A stretch of DNA of 46,178 bases, from IMG/VR virus record IMGVR_UViG_3300042868_005980, positions 1 to 46,178 of that record, one strand, 5' to 3'. Position numbers and translations under genes: made by a program. This stretch comes from a virus. Shown in pieces: positions 11,379-25,991 of the stretch. Under the pieces are notes generated by a model. The model did no database searches. It worked only from the letters and a program-made list of their open reading frames with translations, and was not told where the DNA came from. Within the stretch, counting starts at the first letter, position 1. Every line of letters begins with the position of its first letter.

Positions 11379-12016
11379 CACAAATCCAATATGTAAGTTG
11401 CGCCGCACTGCTTATCTACTGCGTTCGCAGACAAAAGACTGCACTTAATTTCGACAAGCAGCGATGACTCAAACCTCAGCAATTGATACCCATAAGATAA
11501 AAGCCCCTCTGGGGTCATCAGCGAAATAGCTGTGTTTCCGGTGACTATCTGGTTTAAACCACCAACAGCAGCATTGAGAAATCCGTTGTCAGACCCGCCA
11601 TTTAGAGAAAGAGCTTCAATAGCCCCAACAGATGCGCCGGATGAAGTTGGACCAAGGACCATTCGGCTTGACAACGGCTGTACTGCTGATGGGGCTATGG
11701 TGTACGCCGTTCCGTCTACTGTGATGCGAATAGTTGGCGTGTGAGTCGCGGTGTGTGTAGGAGAAACGCAGTTCGCTAAAAACCCAGAGCCAGAAATATT
11801 TGCAACGGTGACGTAGGTATCAGCAACAGCAATTGAGGTTTGAGCACCCCTAAGAGCCAGCGCGGTAAAAAAACCTGCAAGGCTGGAGCCCACCGCCGTT
11901 CCTGATGCTGTTTTTATATTGACCAGTGTGTTTAAAACACTAACCCGATTCATGTGTTTCGGGTTAGTGATCCAGCGGTTGCCGCCGCCGATCAGTTGTC
12001 TTGCGGTGGCGCTCAT
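11378..12016 (-). CDS. Beta-rich tail-associated protein
   Basis: A protein of 212 residues starting MSATARQL, overlapping the collagen-like gene by ATGA. It is Ser/Thr/Ala-rich with short alternating hydrophobic stretches typical of beta-structured tail or fibre proteins. Its 5' part contains a perfect 10-bp inverted repeat followed by a T run on the coding strand. No family recognised; a tail role is inferred from the collagen-like gene upstream. Confidence 0.7.
   Translation of the reverse strand: MSATARQLIGGGNRWITNPKHMNRVSVLNTLVNIKTASGTAVGSSLAGFFTALALRGAQTSIAVADTYVTVANISGSGFLANCVSPTHTATHTPTIRITVDGTAYTIAPSAVQPLSSRMVLGPTSSGASVGAIEALSLNGGSDNGFLNAAVGGLNQIVTGNTAISLMTPEGLLSYGYQLLRFESSLLVEIKCSLLSANAVDKQCGATYILDL
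11938..11969 (-). repeat. Perfect 10-bp inverted repeat inside a tail gene
   Basis: CACTAACCCG and its exact reverse complement are separated by 12 bp. On the transcribed strand the stem is followed by UUUUAAA. It lies within codons 16-27 of the 11378-12016 gene. It resembles an intragenic terminator or attenuator. Confidence 0.7.
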
Positions 12017-12783
12017 TTAAGCACCCACTTGGAAAGGGTTGACGACCACTTCCAGGTCATGGGGAATGGAGGGTTCATAGTTACGGTTCCTGTCGTTGAT
12101 TGGTCATACCCTTGCGCTGTCGCTGCGCCAAAAAGAATGGTGTTGGTTGTCAGCCCGTTGATTGGGGTAACGCAGAACTCTTCGCTATCAACCGGGGTTG
12201 CATTGGCTGTTACAGCGCAGGCAGGTCCAGTCAGCCAGTAGTCATTCCCAGCGGTAGCCGTCCGGGTTGCGCCGGATTCCTCCACCTTGGTCAAAGACCC
12301 GGATGCGCCCGCTGGCCCAGTGGGTCCGGTAGGGCCTGTGGGTCCGGTAGCACCGGTTGAGCCTGTGCCCGAACTGCCAGCAATATGGAAGTGCCCTGTC
12401 GCCGTTGCGTACCGCATAGAAATCACCGCCCCGGCGTTTATGTCGGTCGCCAGCAATGCCGTGCTGTCCAGGCGGCGAATCGACTTCACGCCCAGACCAT
12501 TCACGTTGATGGTCGCGGCCCCAGTGTTTGCGTAGAGCGGGCTGAAGTTGACCTCAAGGCCATCGACGTACCCGGATGGCGCATAGGGAAGCGCAACGAC
12601 ATAGGCATCCGCCGCCCCCGTATCCACCCCAAAGTTGATGGTCCCGCGCTTGATCTCTACTTCGGTTGGCAGTTTCTCAAACGCAACCGCAATGGCCGCA
12701 TCCAGGTTGTTGAAGTCTGCCGATAGCGCCTTGGTGACGGCTGCAATGTCGGTAGGTGAGCTAAATAGGCCGTTAGTTGCCAT
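12013..12783 (-). CDS. Tail fibre-like protein with collagen-like Gly-X-Y segment
   Basis: A protein of 256 residues. The N-terminal 135 residues are a beta-rich domain, followed by a collagen-like run (GSTGATGPTGPTGPTGPAG core, residues 139-163) and a C-terminal beta domain of about 90 residues. Collagen-like triplets in phages usually build trimeric stalks in tail fibres. AAGGGG precedes the ATG. The gene follows the nozzle gene, so it may attach at the tail tip. Receptor specificity cannot be predicted. Confidence 0.8.
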   Translation of the reverse strand: MATNGLFSSPTDIAAVTKALSADFNNLDAAIAVAFEKLPTEVEIKRGTINFGVDTGAADAYVVALPYAPSGYVDGLEVNFSPLYANTGAATINVNGLGVKSIRRLDSTALLATDINAGAVISMRYATATGHFHIAGSSGTGSTGATGPTGPTGPTGPAGASGSLTKVEESGATRTATAGNDYWLTGPACAVTANATPVDSEEFCVTPINGLTTNTILFGAATAQGYDQSTTGTVTMNPPFPMTWKWSSTLSKWVLK

Positions 12784-12801: not shown

Positions 12802-14844
12802 TCATCGTGCAAGCCTTCGCGGTGTGTACTGAACGATCATCCCGTCCAGCTTGTGGCCCAGGTCGATGTCAGTTTTGCTGTAGAAGATCAGTGCCATGTT
12901 CTGGCCTGACCCGGTGATATCGAACTCGGGCTGGTTCACCGTGCGGGCGTCCCAATAGAACTGCCCCCAGGTGCTCACATCCCAATAGCCTCCAGTACCC
13001 TGCCCCGTTGCGGTCTGCAGCATGTGCGGCGCAAAGTAGGAGTCCCCATAGTCAAACTCTGGCTGGAAGCGAATGGACGTATAGCCCACCGAGCTCATTT
13101 CCAGCAGTGCTTTGCGGTAGCGCTTGATCGTCCGCGGGCTGCTGGTGTTGTTGAATGGAAGCCTCAGATAGGCCTCAATCTCTTCGCCGTCGAAGCTGGA
13201 GCCCTTGTCGGCCTGGTAGACATAGCCGTTGTCTGCCCCGAAAAACACCACATCTTTACCGGTGGAGTCTTCGCCAGACCATGCGCAGGTCACGTTTACC
13301 GGGTACTGAAACTCCGTGAAGCCCACCACCCGGTCATTCTTCACCGTCATGATGATGCCGCTGCCATCGCTGCCGTACAGGCGGTATTGGCCACGGGCCC
13401 GGTACACGGCCGAAGCCACCACCTTGGTACGCATGGTGTCGATCAGGCGTTGGATCTTCTCGCTGACGGTGCTCTCGTCAAAGTTGCCGAAGTTCTGGCT
13501 TGCGCTGACCCGGCGAATCCCCTGATCGTCCAGCCCGTAGGTGGCGCCCAGGATCTGGATGGTGTTGCTGATTGCCCCAGCGGTTTCGCTCAAGGTGTCC
13601 AGCACAAAGTCACTCACGCTGGAGCCCGTCAACTGGCTGGCCTTGTTGCGCGAGAAAATCTGCAAAGCCCTTGCGCTCGGTGCGTAGCCTGTGATCGTGT
13701 CGCCGATTCCGATTTCACTTGCACCGGTAACGGCGGTCCAGACATAGGGCGAAGTGATCCCGCTGTTCTGGGTTGACCCAAAGAACGACAAAAACAACTG
13801 CTTTTTGTAAGCTGCAATGTTGGTCGGCTTGTCCACCACCATTCCGCTGTTCAGCGGTACAAATACAGTGCCGTCAAATTCAAAGGCCCGGTCTACGCCG
13901 TTGACGCCATACATGCGGGATGTGTCGGTGCTGCCCGTGAAGTTGTGGGTCACGCACTTGTAGGTGCCCAGCGGGGAAAGCGTGATGGCGCTACTGTTTG
14001 CGGCGACGGTGGCCACGTTCAGGCTGGCGCCCACGTTCAGGTTCTCGGCGACAAAGTTCCCGGTCTGGCTGGCAAAGATCAACCGCCCGGCTGCAGTGCC
14101 GGCCGCCCAGGTTCCAGTCTCCAGTACCACACGGGTGATCACTGCTGTGGCGCCGCTGGTTGCCCCGGTTATCGTGTTGCCTTCTGCAATGACTACCGTT
14201 CCGCCACTGGTGAAAGCCATTTCCCGGCCAAGTGCCACCAGAGTCCAGCCGCCCGATGTGGACTTGTACATTTCGCCGGCCGTGCCGCCTGCGTTGTCCT
14301 GAAAGACGTAGTTCACACCCTTGTAGATGTGGCCGCCACGGATTGGCCGGGCCGCGCCGTTCACCTTCAGGATGTCAGCCCGGTACACATCAGCCGCGGC
14401 ATTCAATGCAACCGCATCGTCGTAGCCGCTACGGTGCCCGCCAATGATCGGCGCAGCGGTCAGCGTTCCCTGTGGAGCCGCTGCGACGTTGATGGTTTCG
14501 CCTGATACAAAGGTGCCGGTCAGCTTGGTGATGGTCAGGTAGCCCGTGCCAACCTGCATTACATAGCCCGTGGCGCCGCTGGTCACGCCTGTAATGGTGT
14601 TGCCCACCACAACCGCACCGGTCAGCGTGTACGCCAGGTAGTAATACACGGCAGCCGATGGGCTTGGCCGACCGTCCAGGCGCTCAAAGCCATCGATGCG
14701 CGGATAACCGCCCTCGATGCCGGGCTCGTAGTTCATGGCACTCAAGGCCATTCCCGGATCGATTGACAGCACCGGAGTGTTCAGGTCCAGCCCGCGGGCG
14801 AACTTGATGTAGTCCGTGCTGATCGGGACTTGCGGGATCTTCAT
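12802..14844 (-). CDS. Tail nozzle/tubular protein candidate (gp12-like position)
   Basis: A protein of 680 residues from ATG 14844 (MKIPQVPIST), overlapping the adaptor stop by ATGA; the longer open frame upstream is noise over the adaptor gene. It is beta-rich with two copies of a small module built around GNTITG(V/A)TSGAT (about residues 75-120 and 215-271). The C-terminal half has repeated aromatic/Gly strands like a beta-propeller. Order and size (about 225-aa adaptor followed by about 680-aa protein) match the podovirus adaptor-nozzle pair. Sequence identity to a named nozzle was not established. Confidence 0.72.
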   Translation of the reverse strand: MKIPQVPISTDYIKFARGLDLNTPVLSIDPGMALSAMNYEPGIEGGYPRIDGFERLDGRPSPSAAVYYYLAYTLTGAVVVGNTITGVTSGATGYVMQVGTGYLTITKLTGTFVSGETINVAAAPQGTLTAAPIIGGHRSGYDDAVALNAAADVYRADILKVNGAARPIRGGHIYKGVNYVFQDNAGGTAGEMYKSTSGGWTLVALGREMAFTSGGTVVIAEGNTITGATSGATAVITRVVLETGTWAAGTAAGRLIFASQTGNFVAENLNVGASLNVATVAANSSAITLSPLGTYKCVTHNFTGSTDTSRMYGVNGVDRAFEFDGTVFVPLNSGMVVDKPTNIAAYKKQLFLSFFGSTQNSGITSPYVWTAVTGASEIGIGDTITGYAPSARALQIFSRNKASQLTGSSVSDFVLDTLSETAGAISNTIQILGATYGLDDQGIRRVSASQNFGNFDESTVSEKIQRLIDTMRTKVVASAVYRARGQYRLYGSDGSGIIMTVKNDRVVGFTEFQYPVNVTCAWSGEDSTGKDVVFFGADNGYVYQADKGSSFDGEEIEAYLRLPFNNTSSPRTIKRYRKALLEMSSVGYTSIRFQPEFDYGDSYFAPHMLQTATGQGTGGYWDVSTWGQFYWDARTVNQPEFDITGSGQNMALIFYSKTDIDLGHKLDGMIVQYTPRRLAR

Positions 14845-17233: not shown

Positions 17234-18268
17234 TTAGGGGTTCAGATTGGTGACGCCGACTTCGATCACGCCGATCCAGCCAGGGTTTGTCACCAAGGCA
17301 GCGGACCAGAACGATGCGCCGACATAGCCGCGCTGACCGAACGGGTCTTCCTTGGTCTTCTGGCTGGCCTTGATGTGCGTGATGTCAAAGTTGGTGTTCA
17401 GGGCAACGTCGAAAACGGCGTCTTCTGCACACACAATCATTGGGTACACGTCCACCAGGGTGCTGGAAGTCACCAGGCCAGTACCGGAGGCGGTTGCGCC
17501 GGCATTGGTGTATGGAGCCAGTTCTTTGGACACGATGAAGCGGAAGCGACCAACCGAGCCCAGCTCGTTCTCATTGATCGGCGAACGGTTGGCATAGCCG
17601 GCCACAGGGATGAAATCCTGCAGTTGGCGAATGTCGTGTTCGCAGTCGGTGTGGCAGAACACCACAAACCCGGCTTCGACAAAGCTGGTGTTGTAGGCTG
17701 GGCCGGGGGCCAAGATCTTGGTCTTCATCTTGCCGCCGTTGGCCATCAGCGTGCGGCTCATCAACGACAGCGCGTTGTAGGTCACAGCCTCGTCCACCGT
17801 GGCGCGAGTGGTGCCGCCGCTGTACTGGACAGTGGTTGCAGCCTTCATCACGCCGTAGCGGATCATTTCGCGCACCAGGGGCATGCGCTCGGCCACTTGT
17901 GCCATCTGATCACCGGGGATGTCGTCTTCGTGGAACAGTTCCACCTTGTCGGTGTAGCTGTACAGGCAGCCGTACTGGGCAATCTGCACGTTCACATCGC
18001 GGTAGCTCAGCGACTCGGGAGTGGGCGTCACGCCTTCCTGCATCTGATGCGCGGCAGCGGTAACGCTCCAGCGGTTCATCGTTGCAGCGGAAGTGGTGGC
18101 TCCACCGGTTGGGATGCGGGCACGGTAGCTGATGTTGTCGCCCTTGTTACGGGGCATTTTCTTCATCGAGCAACCGAGTGCCAGCACTTCGTGCACTTCG
18201 GCGATGGCGAGCATTTCGCCCTTGACTTCATTGATCCGCCCTGCTGGGCTGGTATAGGTATTACCCAT
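17234..18268 (-). CDS. Major capsid protein, N4-gp56 family
   Basis: A protein of 344 residues, the normal size for this HK97-fold family. It starts MGNTYTSPAG and ends with the family's typical region: FGQRGYVGASFWSAAL (about residues 310-325), then NPGWIGVIEVG. The centre contains GGTTRATVDEAVTYN and the FIPVAGYANRSPINENELG region. It forms the icosahedral shell. AAGGAC precedes the ATG, a scaffold-like gene lies upstream and a strong terminator downstream, as expected for the most abundant virion protein. Confidence 0.92.
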   Translation of the reverse strand: MGNTYTSPAGRINEVKGEMLAIAEVHEVLALGCSMKKMPRNKGDNISYRARIPTGGATTSAATMNRWSVTAAAHQMQEGVTPTPESLSYRDVNVQIAQYGCLYSYTDKVELFHEDDIPGDQMAQVAERMPLVREMIRYGVMKAATTVQYSGGTTRATVDEAVTYNALSLMSRTLMANGGKMKTKILAPGPAYNTSFVEAGFVVFCHTDCEHDIRQLQDFIPVAGYANRSPINENELGSVGRFRFIVSKELAPYTNAGATASGTGLVTSSTLVDVYPMIVCAEDAVFDVALNTNFDITHIKASQKTKEDPFGQRGYVGASFWSAALVTNPGWIGVIEVGVTNLNP

Positions 18269-19398: not shown

Positions 19399-19580
19399 AG
19401 GGTGCGCAGCCATTCGCGGAAGTGGGCGGCCCGCTTCACATCGTTCTCAATGAAGATGGCGCGCACTGCGGGCGGCAGGTCTTGGCTGCAACTGCGTTCG
19501 GCCAGTTCTCTGTCGGCCTTGGCGCACATTTCTTCGCGCTGTCGCTGGTACTCAGCAACCGATTCGTCTAGCTTTTTCAT
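19395..19580 (-). CDS. Small charged protein
   Basis: A protein of 61 residues, Glu/Arg-rich, almost wholly helical with two Cys. It overlaps the portal stop by ATGA, so it is translationally coupled. No family recognised. Confidence 0.62.
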   Translation of the reverse strand: MKKLDESVAEYQRQREEMCAKADRELAERSCSQDLPPAVRAIFIENDVKRAAHFREWLRTL

Positions 19581-21856
19581 TGCACAAACGCCTGGCCTGG
19601 TGCGGCACGGCCGGCAGGCTCAACCGCTGGGGTTGTGACTTGCGCAGACATGCGGCTGTTGTTTGCCATGCGCTCCTGCACCTTCAGGCGCAAAGCGACA
19701 TTGGCCAGCAGAACCTTCTCGCGCTCCAGGGCTACGCGCTCGGTAGATGACAGGTCTTCGCGCTTGAGCTGCGCGTCCACTTCCTTCATCATTGCTTCAA
19801 GCTGGCGGTCTTTCTCCGCCTCTCGGGCCTCAAAGTCCTGGCGGGCTTTCTCAAACTGGGCTTCCGCCATCAGCTTGTCTTCTGCCGCCTTCAGTTCCAT
19901 CTGCTTGCGCTCGGTGGCGCCCTGCTCGCGCATCTGGGCAACCATGACCGGTGGAGGTGGCATCTGTGGCTGTGCCGCCATCTTGGCTTTCTTCTCGTCC
20001 GAGTAGTCGAATGCGGCCGGGTCAAACCTGCGGCTCTTCAAATACTCGTCCATGGCCCGCTCGGGGTCTTTGCCATACGAGGGGTTCAGGCACAACTGCA
20101 GCACGGCAATCATTTCTTGGCTCTGGATGTCACGCTCAACCAGGGCGGTAGACCCGCGGGCAACAATGTTGAAGTCGCCTTTTTCCTCTGGGTCTTCCCC
20201 GTACTGCATTAACCAGGCGTAATACCTGCGGATGTGCGGCTCGGTGATACAGGCATCGAACATGCGGGCAATCCGGCGCAGCACCGAATTGGCGTTGTTA
20301 TTCAGGATCTGCATCCCGCCAACGGTGTCCGGCGCGCTGCCCTGCTGGCCCTGCATCAAGGCGGGCATGCCGGTAACATCCTCGGCCATCTTCATGCCAA
20401 GCTGAATCAGGTTTGTGAGCTCAGTGAGCATCATGGGGATCACCACGGCCGACACCGGCGCCGATGCGTTCCCTGCAGCGTCGTCGTCCTCTTCCCAAAT
20501 CTTCAGCGGCTCAATCTCCCAGACCCCGTTCTGTGGCGATACTCCGCGGCGCACCACGATCTGCGGGCCGGATGCCAGGCCGGCGTTGTCTGCCAGTCGG
20601 CGGGTTGCACCAACCACAATGCGCTGAGGTGTGCGGATCTGCCGGGCCAGTCCCATGCCCCAAGGCATGCCAGGGCGGCGCTTCCATGGCACCAGGTCAT
20701 AGGGAAATTCGCCGTTGTCCAGCGGATTCAGTGCCGCATTGATCACCCGGTCATTCACCAGCGTCAGCTTGGCGGGGTAGAAATCCTTCTTCTCGTCGCC
20801 GCAATCGCAGCCCGAAGCCTCCATCTGCTCGGCGGTGATGTTGCCGTGGAAGTACCAGATGTCATACAGCGTCTTGCTTGAGCGGGCCTGCACATCCATG
20901 CGGGTAGCGGCATCGCTGCCACCCGATGGGCCTTCTGCAATGCACTTGTCAATCTGGCTGTCCAGATACCCGGGCAAGCCCTTCAAGTCCTGCAGCTTGC
21001 GTTCGCTGATCTGGTCGTATTCCCAAATGAATGACCCGTTGTGGATTGATTCGCCACAGGCTGGATAGTCTGGGTATAGGTTCCACGGGTCGATTCGCAT
21101 GGATGCCGGCTTGATTTCCTCCACCAGCACCAGCGCCGATACGCCGTCTTCACCCTGTTGCCACACGGTTGACTTGCGCTTGACGGGCACCGGGCCCTTG
21201 ATCACGCCAGAACCCAGCTTGCCAACGTCATCGAACACCTTGCGCAGCTCAGCGTGATACTGGCACTCTTCCAGCCAGTCATCAATGCGAGACTGGGCCT
21301 TGGCTGCCTTGCGATCAGCCTCAGCCTTGTAGCGCTTGAGCTCAGCCTGGGCTTGAGCCTTGGGGTCCACTGGTTCAGCGGGCGGCGCAGGTGGAGCACC
21401 GGGCGGGCCCGGCTGCACTGGTGGCGCTGGCGGGATAGGCAATGGCTCTGGCCCTTCCAGCATGTCCGGTATCTCGGTTGCCTCAATGGCAAAGTTACGG
21501 TCATCTGTTGGCAGCAGCACATCGCCGATCCGCGCAGACACGGCATCGACCAGCGGCTGTGTGATGTTGGGGAACACCACAGAGCCCTTGCTCCTTACGG
21601 CTGGCTCTGAAGACTGGCCGTTTGCCGTGGGCTTGGATACGGTGTTGACGAACTCATGGCGGTTTGCGTCGTCGTAGCCCTGGTAAAACTCTTCGTCGCC
21701 CGTCCACTCAGACTCAATGCCGCATGCAGCGCGCGCAGCTACAACGTCTCGGCGCTTGGCCGAAAGCGTTTGCCCGAGCGCGTCCAGAATGACCAGGCGC
21801 GCTTCAATCGCCTTTGCTTCATCCTGCTCGCTGGGTTGTGCTGTTAGTTCTTGCAT
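19577..21856 (-). CDS. Portal protein
   Basis: A protein of 759 residues, in the range of large podovirus portals. It forms the dodecameric DNA gate at one vertex. The N-terminal region has the polar helices and FPNITQPLVDAVSARIGD segment common in portals; the middle contains MPWGMGLARQI and the C-terminal 150 residues are a long charged helix (barrel). A proline-rich insert at residues 135-166 lies between two structured regions. It follows the terminase genes but is separated from them by the esterase-tail gene and a terminator. Confidence 0.88.
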   Translation of the reverse strand: MQELTAQPSEQDEAKAIEARLVILDALGQTLSAKRRDVVAARAACGIESEWTGDEEFYQGYDDANRHEFVNTVSKPTANGQSSEPAVRSKGSVVFPNITQPLVDAVSARIGDVLLPTDDRNFAIEATEIPDMLEGPEPLPIPPAPPVQPGPPGAPPAPPAEPVDPKAQAQAELKRYKAEADRKAAKAQSRIDDWLEECQYHAELRKVFDDVGKLGSGVIKGPVPVKRKSTVWQQGEDGVSALVLVEEIKPASMRIDPWNLYPDYPACGESIHNGSFIWEYDQISERKLQDLKGLPGYLDSQIDKCIAEGPSGGSDAATRMDVQARSSKTLYDIWYFHGNITAEQMEASGCDCGDEKKDFYPAKLTLVNDRVINAALNPLDNGEFPYDLVPWKRRPGMPWGMGLARQIRTPQRIVVGATRRLADNAGLASGPQIVVRRGVSPQNGVWEIEPLKIWEEDDDAAGNASAPVSAVVIPMMLTELTNLIQLGMKMAEDVTGMPALMQGQQGSAPDTVGGMQILNNNANSVLRRIARMFDACITEPHIRRYYAWLMQYGEDPEEKGDFNIVARGSTALVERDIQSQEMIAVLQLCLNPSYGKDPERAMDEYLKSRRFDPAAFDYSDEKKAKMAAQPQMPPPPVMVAQMREQGATERKQMELKAAEDKLMAEAQFEKARQDFEAREAEKDRQLEAMMKEVDAQLKREDLSSTERVALEREKVLLANVALRLKVQERMANNSRMSAQVTTPAVEPAGRAAPGQAFVQ

Positions 21857-21868
21857 GTGTTCAGGCGT

Positions 21869-21891
21869 AAAAAAAGCACCCGAAGGTGCTT
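21869..21891 (-). terminator. Rho-independent terminator with UUCG loop
   Basis: On the minus strand AAGCACC-TTCG-GGTGCTT is followed by a T run. It ends the terminase plus esterase-tail block just before the portal gene. Confidence 0.85.
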
Positions 21892-21911
21892 GGTGTTTGG
21901 TGCTGCGCTGG

Positions 21912-24230
21912 TCATGTAACGGTCACTGCTGAAAGTAATGGCTCCACCTCTGTCGCCAGCAAGTCATTGCCGGTGCCAGACTGGTGCGTGCCGTCTGTGC
22001 TGGCGTTGTCTTTCCACTTGGCAAGGTTCACTCCGCGCACAGATTGCGGGTCAATGTTTTGATCTATGAGCCCGTATTTCAGCCACTGAATAGAGGAAAG
22101 GTCAGGGAATGTGGTGGGGTAAGCGCGCACCACTGTTTGTCCGGCTTCAGTTGCGAAGGTGCCTGATGTGCGCGGGAATAGCCCGAGCTTTATCAGCTTG
22201 TCATACCCGTATGTTCCTCTTGCTGTCTTCCAATACGTGAAGAAATCAAGCACTGAATTTGTGTTATTTGTGCCAAACTCGTCCAGCAAAACGCGGCAAT
22301 ACTTGAGGTAAGGCGTCCAGTTGGCAGCGGTAGCTGCGGCTTGTAATTGGCTCTGTCCACCCTGAGACATTTCCAACTTTGGCAACCCGAGATTGCGGCA
22401 TGCCAGGTTGACAAAAGTACCCGTAGTGCCAAGTGAGCCGGTTCCCTCAATGATGGAGTCACCGACAACAAACAAGGTCTTGGGGTCGCCGCTCACAAAC
22501 TTGCCAACCAGAATCGGAACATAGCTCTGTGTCAACTGGCCGGGGTCTGAGCCTGATAGCAACGCAATCGCCCCAGTTCCATCAACGTCAGAGAAGGACG
22601 CGGTAGCCGGGTTATAGATGCGCCCCCAGCCACCAGTTTCTGATTGCCTGCATCCCATGATGATGTGACCAGCCGTTGTCACGGAGCCCTCTATACGCAC
22701 CCAAAATTCCGTGTTTGCCGGAAACTCGGTCAGCCCGGTGAATGCACTTGGCAATATCACATCAGACAAAACCGTGGTGTTTGCGCCGTCTGCAACGGTA
22801 AATGACCGGGAGGCAGACACCGTAACTGGCACTTGCTCTGCAACTCCCGTTACGCGCTCCAGTGCCACCTTGGTGATATTCAGCGCATTGCCTACGGCTA
22901 CGCCAGCCCAACGAATGTTCGGGAAGTCCAATTGCAGCTCGGAACACGCATGTGCGCCCAACTTGACGCGGAACCGGCTCTTAAATGTCAGCGCGGAGCC
23001 TGCGGTAGTGTTGAGACCCGCTGGCAAACGGTTGTCAACGCTCACGGTACGCAAGACGCCAGGAGTGGCGGTAGATGCCGGTGTTGGCGCTGTCAGAGCT
23101 TGCATTTCCGCAACGCTTAGGCGCGTTGGGTAAAAGCGAATACTCTTGATATGCCCCGCGTTTGTCGTGCCGGTGGTGGCAAGCAGTCGAATATCGGATC
23201 CGCTAAAGGTGGGCTGTACGCCTACAGTAGTTGCGCCGCCGTTGTTAACCGTGTCGCTGGTAATGCCGCTCCAAGCTATTGCAGTCTTGCCCCGCACGGT
23301 AGCGCCCAACACTGTGTTTGCGCCACTGCCGATGATGGGGCCGCTCCAGCAGTCATGTTCTACAACAAAGGTGCCTTGCGCGGTTGTCAGCCATGCTGTG
23401 TCATTAAATATCGCAGACTCTGCCGCCTGTGATGCCGTGGCCGCTCCTGTTGCCACATAGCCCACGGGGCCGTTTGTGGTGGTCAGCGATGCGCCAAACA
23501 CTTGAACCCGCTCAGTAGTCACCGCCGTGTAATTGCGTCCGTCCGGTGCTGTGTTGGCTACTACGCCCAAATGAAACTGCTTATTGCCCGTCGCAACCCA
23601 TGTGCCAGTGATGGCGAGCATGTAAACGCCGTCCGACATTTTGCGGTAAGTGAACACGGCGTCCGTCATTGCTGCTGTGTCTTCTACCGGGTAAAAGCCA
23701 TCGTTGCCATCAAGACGGAATGCCACGCGGACGCCGTTGTTATCAAACTCTGCCGCGCACTTCAAGTAAGCCGCGTAGTTTGTAGAGCCAGCATCCAACT
23801 TTGCAAAGATAGACCATGTTTGCCGCACGCCGGAAGTCTGTGAGCCGGGCGTTCTGCGTATGGTGTGGTAATTTGCGGTTGCGGTGGCATCAATCCGGCT
23901 CAACTGAGTAATCACACCCGAAGCTGCATCGCCAGCCACGGCTGTACTCATTCCTGCCAGTGTCCAAGCCGCGTTTGTAAAGTCGTTGCTATAGGTCAGC
24001 AGGTTGGTAAAGCCTGGCTCAATAGCCAAGCCACGGTTTACACCGTCCCACGACTCAAACGCAGGGGTGCCGGTTGCCAATGCAGTGAGCACGCCGCCCG
24101 TAATATAGTTGCGCGTGCCCGACCTGGCGAACGTGATGCTAGACGGCAAAGACGTTGTTAGATCAAGGTTGAGCGTATAAGGCAATGCTGCCCCGCTCCC
24201 CCTATTCCCCACGTAAAAGTTCCGAAGCAT
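21912..24230 (-). CDS. Tail spike/fibre-like protein with C-terminal SGNH esterase domain
   Basis: A protein of 772 residues. The first 570 are Thr/Gly/Ala-rich beta structure, with stretches like a concanavalin/LamG sandwich (FTNLLTYSNDF, KSIRFYPTRLS). The last 190 carry SGNH-hydrolase blocks in order: GDS at 590-592 (Ser592), Gly in GGQSQ near 624, GTNN near 653-656, and DGTH with D746 and H749. Such domains remove acetyl or other ester groups from glycans, so it probably modifies host surface polysaccharide during adsorption. It sits between terminase and portal, away from the other tail genes, and is closed by a terminator. The structural part is inferred; the catalytic motifs are visible. 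Confidence 0.82.
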   Translation of the reverse strand: MLRNFYVGNRGSGAALPYTLNLDLTTSLPSSITFARSGTRNYITGGVLTALATGTPAFESWDGVNRGLAIEPGFTNLLTYSNDFTNAAWTLAGMSTAVAGDAASGVITQLSRIDATATANYHTIRRTPGSQTSGVRQTWSIFAKLDAGSTNYAAYLKCAAEFDNNGVRVAFRLDGNDGFYPVEDTAAMTDAVFTYRKMSDGVYMLAITGTWVATGNKQFHLGVVANTAPDGRNYTAVTTERVQVFGASLTTTNGPVGYVATGAATASQAAESAIFNDTAWLTTAQGTFVVEHDCWSGPIIGSGANTVLGATVRGKTAIAWSGITSDTVNNGGATTVGVQPTFSGSDIRLLATTGTTNAGHIKSIRFYPTRLSVAEMQALTAPTPASTATPGVLRTVSVDNRLPAGLNTTAGSALTFKSRFRVKLGAHACSELQLDFPNIRWAGVAVGNALNITKVALERVTGVAEQVPVTVSASRSFTVADGANTTVLSDVILPSAFTGLTEFPANTEFWVRIEGSVTTAGHIIMGCRQSETGGWGRIYNPATASFSDVDGTGAIALLSGSDPGQLTQSYVPILVGKFVSGDPKTLFVVGDSIIEGTGSLGTTGTFVNLACRNLGLPKLEMSQGGQSQLQAAATAANWTPYLKYCRVLLDEFGTNNTNSVLDFFTYWKTARGTYGYDKLIKLGLFPRTSGTFATEAGQTVVRAYPTTFPDLSSIQWLKYGLIDQNIDPQSVRGVNLAKWKDNASTDGTHQSGTGNDLLATEVEPLLSAVTVT

Positions 24231-24237
24231 TTAGGCG

Positions 24238-24495
24238 TCAGACCTGGTAGAAAACAGTTGCGTCCAGCGTGCCGCCGACTGTGATGGTCAGCCCGCCCCG
24301 GAAATCGCAGGGCATGGGGTAGAACTGGCCTGCGGTCACAGACATTGTGTTGACAATGACCCCGCCTGCGTCTTCCACCTTGATCGTTCCAGAATTGGAA
24401 GATGCAACCAGAATGCCGGTCAGGTTCCCGTCACGCAGCTTGGTCGTCGTCGCTGAGAAATTAAACCGCTTGCCGGCTTCAGTTACTTTGTTCAT
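24238..24495 (-). CDS. Small beta-rich protein linked to the esterase tail gene
   Basis: A protein of 85 residues (MNKVTEAGKRF) with alternating beta-like residues. AAGGAC precedes the ATG. It lies between large terminase and the SGNH tail gene, 7 bp from the latter. It could be a head-completion protein or an adaptor for the spike. No family recognised. Confidence 0.65.
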   Translation of the reverse strand: MNKVTEAGKRFNFSATTTKLRDGNLTGILVASSNSGTIKVEDAGGVIVNTMSVTAGQFYPMPCDFRGGLTITVGGTLDATVFYQV

Positions 24496-24521: not shown

Positions 24522-25991
24522 CTACAGGCCTATGCCAGAGTCTTTGGCTGCGTATGTGGCGCCTACTCGCTTGGGCTTGACTGCCTGGTTCTGCACTGCA
24601 AACCGCTTCATCATGTTTGCGTAGCGGGTTGCCGAAAGCAGGTCGTCGTCCATCTTGACGATCTTCCCGTCCTTGCGGTGGTACATGCGGAACTCTTCAA
24701 ACCAGTCATTCAGGTGGTTGAACACCTTGAAACGGCCGGTCTGCATGCGGTCCAGCATGTCCATGATTCCAGCTTCCACCCCGTTGCCGCCCGTGCCTTC
24801 CGGCTGGTTGTCGGCTGGTGGATGCGTTGCCTTGTCCTTCAGCATCTTCAGGCCCTGCGCCTTGTACTGCGATGCCAGCTCTTCGCCCGATCCTTTGTCG
24901 TGCTGCAGGCCATCGTGTGGCCACGCCCATGGCAGCCAGGAGCCCCACGGCTTGACAGATGCAGCGAACAAAACCGGCGTCTGCTCGCGCGCCCGGTGCG
25001 CAGCGGTCACATAAATGATGTCTGCGTCCCTGTCCCATGCCAGCTTTACCGCGGCGCTTGGGTGGTCCCATCCGAAATCCAGCCCGCCGATCTGCACCCA
25101 GTGCTGGGGAATGTCAAACGCCTTGCAGGTAATCAGGCCTTCCTCAACCGGGAAGATCCGGCCACTGCCCAGCGTTGGGATACCCATCGACCGTGCTTCG
25201 CGCTCATGCGCCGGGTAGCTGGCAATGATCGCCGCGCGCTGCTCTGGCGTGTAGTGGCCGGCGTCATGGATCGTCATCGTGACAACCCCCGTACCCACGT
25301 GCTTATCAACCAGGAACCGCTTGACCACATCCGACATGCCTTTGAGCGGCGTGAATGTCACCCAGACAATGCCCTGTGTGGCGTTGGTCCGTGTCAATCC
25401 CTCGATGTAGATGTCTTCTGGTGGCTCTTCATCGAACCACACAAAGTCCAGCGTTTCCCCCTGCCAGCGCGTGCGCCCCTGGTCGTAGGTCTTCAACGTT
25501 ACCCGGCTGACTCCGCCCGATACATGCCTGACCAGGATGGTTTCAACCGCGTCCGCAACCCCGTGGGCGGCCCGCTTAATCTCCAGTATCTTGTCGGCCG
25601 GTATGGCTCCAGTGCCCCAAGCCCCAACCGGGCCCAACAGCAAGCGCTGAACCGTATCCCGCGTGCCCTGGCTGGTTTCAGATGCCGCCCATCCCGTTGT
25701 CGGGTCATCAAATACCGCCCCTTCCCAGTCATCTGGGTAGAGCCCGGTAAGGTGCATGGCGCACTCAAACGATCCCGCAACCGTCTTGCCAAGCTGGTTT
25801 CCAGCAACCAGCAGGCGCTCCCGAATGCTCAGATCCGCGCCCATGCGGTGAAAGTCCCGCTGCTTGGCGTATGGCTGGTAGTCGGCCAGCTTGAACCGGG
25901 CCAATTCAGCCTGGGCTTCAGATAACAGTGCTGCCTGCGCCTCCGGGCTCAAGTCATCGAGCCAGTCCAGGCTATCAGCCGCGCTTTGCAC
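24522..25991 (-). CDS. terL: Terminase large subunit
   Basis: A protein of 489 residues. This packaging motor has an N-terminal ATPase and a C-terminal nuclease. Walker A is VAGNQLGKT (62-70) and Walker B is LDFVWFDEEP (181-190), with the catalytic Glu next to it. The nuclease domain starts at GLDFGWDHP (D305 region) and has a later acidic cluster in MDDDLLSATRY. GTG at 25991 lies inside the small-subunit gene with GAGAGG just upstream. Together with the small subunit and portal it packages DNA into the procapsid. Confidence 0.93.
   Translation of the reverse strand: MQSAADSLDWLDDLSPEAQAALLSEAQAELARFKLADYQPYAKQRDFHRMGADLSIRERLLVAGNQLGKTVAGSFECAMHLTGLYPDDWEGAVFDDPTTGWAASETSQGTRDTVQRLLLGPVGAWGTGAIPADKILEIKRAAHGVADAVETILVRHVSGGVSRVTLKTYDQGRTRWQGETLDFVWFDEEPPEDIYIEGLTRTNATQGIVWVTFTPLKGMSDVVKRFLVDKHVGTGVVTMTIHDAGHYTPEQRAAIIASYPAHEREARSMGIPTLGSGRIFPVEEGLITCKAFDIPQHWVQIGGLDFGWDHPSAAVKLAWDRDADIIYVTAAHRAREQTPVLFAASVKPWGSWLPWAWPHDGLQHDKGSGEELASQYKAQGLKMLKDKATHPPADNQPEGTGGNGVEAGIMDMLDRMQTGRFKVFNHLNDWFEEFRMYHRKDGKIVKMDDDLLSATRYANMMKRFAVQNQAVKPKRVGATYAAKDSGIGL

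Follow-up and report, generated by a model that had tools for sequence, protein, structure and literature searches.

Layout of the terL–portal slot

The window analysed here is an entire 46,178-base IMG/VR virus record, its gene order read on the minus strand, on which terS and the large terminase gene (terL) are followed by ORFs for proteins of 85 and 772 aa, a terminator, the portal gene and then further head genes (Table 1). Profile searches confirmed the identities of terS, terL and portal, and the gene pair that a preliminary description had placed between the latter two is indeed present. The terminator said to close this cassette is likewise real by shuffle test and conserved, its minus-strand stem (AAGCACC-TTCG-GGTGCTT with a T-run, 21874-21891) finding no match in 100 shuffles. 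GC content is 55.5% in the cassette versus about 61% for terL and portal. As also claimed previously, the cassette stands apart from the tail genes; the nearest recognisable tail-fibre-like gene (12013-12783) lies about 9 kb away, and the nameable genes between them are mostly head genes, such as that for the major head protein. Beyond the cassette, an imperfect 35-base direct repeat occurs in two copies at a spacing of 423 bases (14147-14604), inside a 796-aa ORF.

Table 1. Features of the terL–portal slot and related genes in the window.
Feature	Position	Strand	Basis or remark
Large terminase (terL)	24522..25991	-	Pfam PF03237 (Terminase_6N) and PF17289 (6C); upstream flank of slot
85-aa beta-rich protein, proposed spike base and capsid-side fibre partner	24238..24495	-	
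772-aa putative head spike fibre with predicted C-terminal SGNH esterase module	21912..24230	-	NF048003, Rcc01080 profile, SGNH residues
N-terminal anchor codons (MLRNFYVGNRGSGAA)	24185..24230	-	DNA alignment; fibre part common to the otherwise unrelated protein of L010
GTA head-spike-fibre domain, residues 70-270	23421..24023	-	NCBIfam NF048003
Beta-rich module, residues about 393-580	22491..23054	-	Conserved with SGNH domain in other phage esterases
SGNH hydrolase domain, residues about 583-772	21915..22484	-	Alignment of four distant phage homologues; homologues match Pfam Lipase_GDSL_2
Catalytic codons S592; N655; D746; H749	22455-22457; 22266-22268; 21993-21995; 21984-21986	-	
Intrinsic terminator, downstream edge of exchanged segment	21867..21891	-	Stem-loop identical at same place in L010
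Portal	19577..21856	-	Pfam SU10_portal, PHROG 332/1216; downstream flank of slot
Major head protein	17234..18268		
Separate collagen-like, tail-fibre-like protein outside cassette	12013..12783	-	PHROG tail and tail-fibre matches

Exchange at the slot

Relatives (L numbers) were found through the portal, and their comparison at the terL–portal junction revealed that the content of the slot varies. The same 85-aa and 772-aa pair occupies it in L002 and L007, two other contigs whose shared arrangement rules out an assembly artefact. In L010 the 85-aa gene (80% identity) is instead accompanied by an unrelated 503-aa SGNH protein (Pfam GDSL E 1.9e-9); L004, L005 and L008 carry the 85-aa gene alone, L072 carries it with one further gene, L003 has an unrelated 203-aa gene, and L006 and L009 have eight small genes, several of them beta-rich. 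The slot is empty in the more distant outgroups MW202426 and Pmp11. A fixed gene, the same in all relatives, is ruled out by this variation, and the earlier designation of the pair as an exchangeable cassette is strongly supported by relatives in which the slot is empty, or holds another SGNH protein or unrelated genes.

The edges of the exchanged segment are sharp. The DNA of the window and of L010 agrees as far as codon 15 of the fibre, where similarity reaches GGGGAATAGGGGGAGCGGGGCAGCAT and ends; unrelated sequence follows, and agreement resumes at the terminator. Similarity is also mosaic within the fibre, where alignment columns 1101-1300 of the window match L012, a phage that differs in terminase and portal, at 90-94%, versus 81-86% for the window's own sister, L011.

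The terminases of these relatives display a pattern of their own. Unrelated terL genes upstream of related portals (L004 767-2218, L005 479-1870, L008 1413-3950, L010 795-2312, L009 1116-2636, and window 24522-25991) end alike (RHGADYAPRDTGLGL, RTGAPYTAKDSGIGL, RVGATYAAKDSGIGL), and it seems that the terminase body was swapped while its C-terminal tail stayed with the portal, chimeric assembly being an alternative. Close to its C-terminus, the terL product of L008 also contains an insert resembling an intein (Pfam Intein_splicing E 2.5e-8, slightly short of the curated cut-off), and its terL match is interrupted at residues 451-461.

The SGNH esterase module

The SGNH motifs of the 772-aa protein occur in the order originally reported (GDS 590-592, GTNN 653-656, DGTH 746-749). 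Residues about 393-769 are matched by proteins of Pseudomonas phage Voja-6, Xanthomonas phages Xp15 and XAJ2, and a Manatee Spring phage; the tblastn alignments for the Manatee Spring, Voja-6 and Xp15 proteins start at residues 393-448 and end at 768-769. In alignment with four distant phage homologues the catalytic residues S592, N655, D746 and H749 are all invariant, which rules out a chance ordering of motifs. Direct scanning of the 772-aa protein against Pfam GDSL models gave no match, and of the three homologues scanned Xp15 and Voja-6 scored above the cut-off and XAJ2 just below, such that SGNH/GDSL membership is assigned by transitive homology. The predicted esterase activity is thus well supported by the catalytic residues and the homologues. 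The proposal that the enzyme comprises the C-terminal 190 residues holds for the SGNH domain itself, but the conserved module is larger, taking in residues about 393-769. That this module acts on O-acetylated surface glycans is a reasonable inference.

The want of a direct Pfam GDSL match, together with a block III that reads GTNN where GxND is usual, might alternatively indicate that the SGNH fold is inactive or acts on a target other than host glycans, leaving the fibre as a lectin-like head spike only. We consider this improbable, as distant homologues scoring as GDSL enzymes retain all of the S, N, D and H residues, and the slot of L010 is independently occupied by an unrelated SGNH protein.

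Among these homologues, Xp15 gp04 and the XAJ2 'hemagglutinin-like' protein (PHROG 19495/8480) share with the window protein a homologous C-terminal esterase module whose catalytic residues are identical, and resemble it in gene position, which is either ahead of terL or flanked by head morphogenesis and scaffold genes. They differ in that no spike-fibre domain was found in them, and in identities of 25-33%; their records label them hypothetical or hemagglutinin-like.

A spike-fibre domain in unrelated backbones

Residues 70-270 of the 772-aa protein match NF048003 (E 1.6e-18, 67.8 bits, cut-off 36), identifying an RcGTA-type fibre domain. When a profile of the relatives was searched against the PDB, the best solved relative was the head spike fibre Rcc01080 (E 4.5e-33, residues 30-277), and a tail fibre, a baseplate wedge and a triplex protein were also matched at about 1e-11; as these matches include proteins filed under tail, the domain is indicative of spikes and fibres broadly, and most of all of the RcGTA head spike. 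An AF2 model of the fibre (10 sequences) reached pLDDT 36 and was set aside. By homology, the 772-aa protein is probably of spike type, with a body that probably binds sugar joined to the SGNH esterase module.

Fibre homologues (63-94%) are found in at least four other phage backbones, in each beside head or packaging genes: that of L012 (Terminase_3, SU10 portal, SU10 capsid), that of L013/L014 (Mu-type portal, capsid protein E), that of L016 (Phage_capsid_4) and that of L017 (GpA terminase). The gene immediately before the fibre in L013/L014 encodes an 81-aa member of the RcGTA spike-base family (NF048002 E 2.5e-19), which also matches spike bases of known structure in the PDB. The first 10-20 residues of the fibre vary with the partner gene (MKIGLNISM in L013, MNLAMAMRLG in L017, MLRNFYVGNRGSG in the window). 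Conversely, in L037-L040 an identical or almost identical 81-aa base precedes a 685-aa fibre that is unrelated but carries a similar anchor, MKLGINLGLNIS, and the 503-aa SGNH body of L010 recurs in L073 behind a different anchor. This pattern of anchors and bodies is what a plug-and-body arrangement predicts. An alternating hydrophobic plug is present in L073 and in most fibres behind Rcc01079-family bases (shuffle p 0.003-0.06), and is absent from the window anchor MLRNFYVGNRG (shuffle p 0.33).

Several further genes were observed in these relatives. MW202426, the nearest named portal relative, encodes an RcGTA-family spike base and then a 258-aa fibre-like protein starting MLAGLSLGMGI (L080 2409-3472), a pair which sits in the tail/lysis region, not between terL and portal. 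A beta-rich protein of 494-496 aa that belongs to no known family (L009 4155-5639, L013 2061-3551), possibly a second spike or decoration protein, lies in the terL–portal slot of L006/L009 and one gene before the spike base in L013/L014. Homing-endonuclease-like ORFs, judged by eye, occur in the head clusters of L013 (3548-4054) and L014 (11718-12773), one of them adjoining the spike base, and could help to drive cassette exchange. Scans of bacterial genome contigs for the fibre and the small gene found no relative, and hence gave no host assignment.

Head or tail

The preliminary description named the 772-aa product a tail protein, and PHROG 5939, which it matches, bears that same label. A tail spike or fibre whose gene landed in the head module, with the 85-aa protein as a tail adaptor or chaperone, would also be in keeping with the occurrence of the sugar-binding domain in tail proteins of known structure, and with the known phage SGNH enzymes, those of G7C (gp63.1), Moo19 (gp82) and B2, which are esterase tailspikes assayable with p-nitrophenyl acetate (PMC11654681). 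A virion-associated esterase acting on surface glycans is the very job proposed for the window protein; the tailspikes, however, are mounted on the tail, and it is by proposed function that the window protein is likened to them. The G7C type is encoded in the tail module, whereas the present gene lies between terL and portal, and its close homologues all adjoin terminase, portal or capsid genes in unrelated backbones, giving a head-cluster location in all five. Moreover, the best domain match is to a head-spike-fibre domain, the L013/L014 homologue adjoins a true RcGTA-family spike-base gene, the window encodes a separate tail-fibre-like protein, and the fibre is exchanged across SU10-type and Mu-type phages, which have different tails. 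Together these points make a tail position unlikely, and the name 'tail protein' is probably wrong.

The pair might otherwise be a moron with no role in the virion, for example a secreted modifier of the host surface that excludes other phages; an extra gene with its own terminator, lower GC and patchy distribution is as seen in morons. Spike-fibre homology, the location in head clusters everywhere and pairing with a spike-base gene all argue against this reading, which we regard as very improbable.

The 85-aa partner

The 85-aa gene precedes the cassette fibre in every relative bearing both, and is without a fibre in L004, L005, L008 and L072. Its product did not match the NF048002 spike-base model. 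Its profile gave an hhalign probability of 10-17% against the RcGTA spike-base set, yet none of 200 column shuffles scored as well, and ten other small proteins, run as single sequences against the spike-base profile, did not rise above shuffles. An AF2 model is all-beta (pLDDT 75); Foldseek of this model against the PDB returned nothing below E 0.001, the best matches being nucleoplasmin-like domains, and against predicted viral proteins returned unnamed phage proteins only. A tblastn search of the phage collection with the 85-aa protein yielded nothing useful. These comparisons weakly link the 85-aa protein to the RcGTA base. The small partners in L012 (180 aa), L017 (102 aa), L073 (103 aa) and L003 (203 aa) were also considered as bases and rejected, none exceeding shuffles against the spike-base profile.

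Discussion

We propose, with a probability of roughly two in three, that the cassette encodes an RcGTA-like head spike in which an anchor peptide joins a small base on the capsid to a sugar-binding body that ends in a C-terminal deacetylase. The RcGTA spike consists of a pentameric base mounted on the capsid and a fibre which attaches to that base through its residues 2-10 and itself binds capsule (PMC7296036, PMC10218006). The window resembles this spike (GhsA/Rcc01079 base, GhsB/Rcc01080 fibre) in the homologous fibre domain (window residues 30-277), in the small beta-rich gene immediately upstream of the fibre gene, in a short N-terminal segment apparently separate from the fibre body, and through the L013/L014 homologue that stands behind a true Rcc01079-family base. 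It differs in the length of its fibre (772 residues versus 325) and the added esterase module, in a partner which is not detectably Rcc01079 by HMM, in an anchor without the I/L-x repeat (IALGLGLGL in RcGTA), and in the placement of its genes between terL and portal. As the 85-aa protein has no spike-base match and the anchor no alternating pattern, we describe the cassette as working like the RcGTA head spike and not as a strict member of that family.

From the homology, catalytic residues, exchange with its boundaries, and head-module location in unrelated backbones observed here, we infer a virion position, stoichiometry, substrate and role in infection as follows. By analogy with RcGTA, the 85-aa protein would form an oligomer, presumably a pentamer, on the capsid vertices, into which roughly the first 15 residues of the fibre would plug. 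Residues about 30-277 may then bind a host surface polysaccharide, from which the C-terminal 380 residues (beta-rich module and SGNH hydrolase) would remove esters, probably O-acetyl groups. The particle could thus bind reversibly, trim the coat and arrive at the cell surface ahead of tail engagement. Recombination bounded by the conserved anchor codons on one side and the stop or terminator on the other would exchange the fibre bodies, the anchor staying with its base.

More broadly, the arrangement may exemplify widespread modular head spikes in which an N-terminal peptide serves as the plug, and in which bodies, including two unrelated SGNH esterases, are swapped among SU10-like, Mu-like and other phages across different bases, such that the capsid and not the tail carries a coat-modifying enzyme; we hold this wider proposition to be evenly poised. 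An enzyme-bearing head spike was not found in the open-access literature searched, a result that, with incomplete coverage and few terms, argues weakly for novelty. Studies of phage host range concentrate on tails. If esterases do ride on head spikes, as cassettes that move between unrelated phages, then a second module of host adaptation would have been overlooked, because its genes lie among those for terminase and capsid and are labelled 'tail' or 'hypothetical', and the RcGTA spike would represent a domesticated form of a device general among phages.
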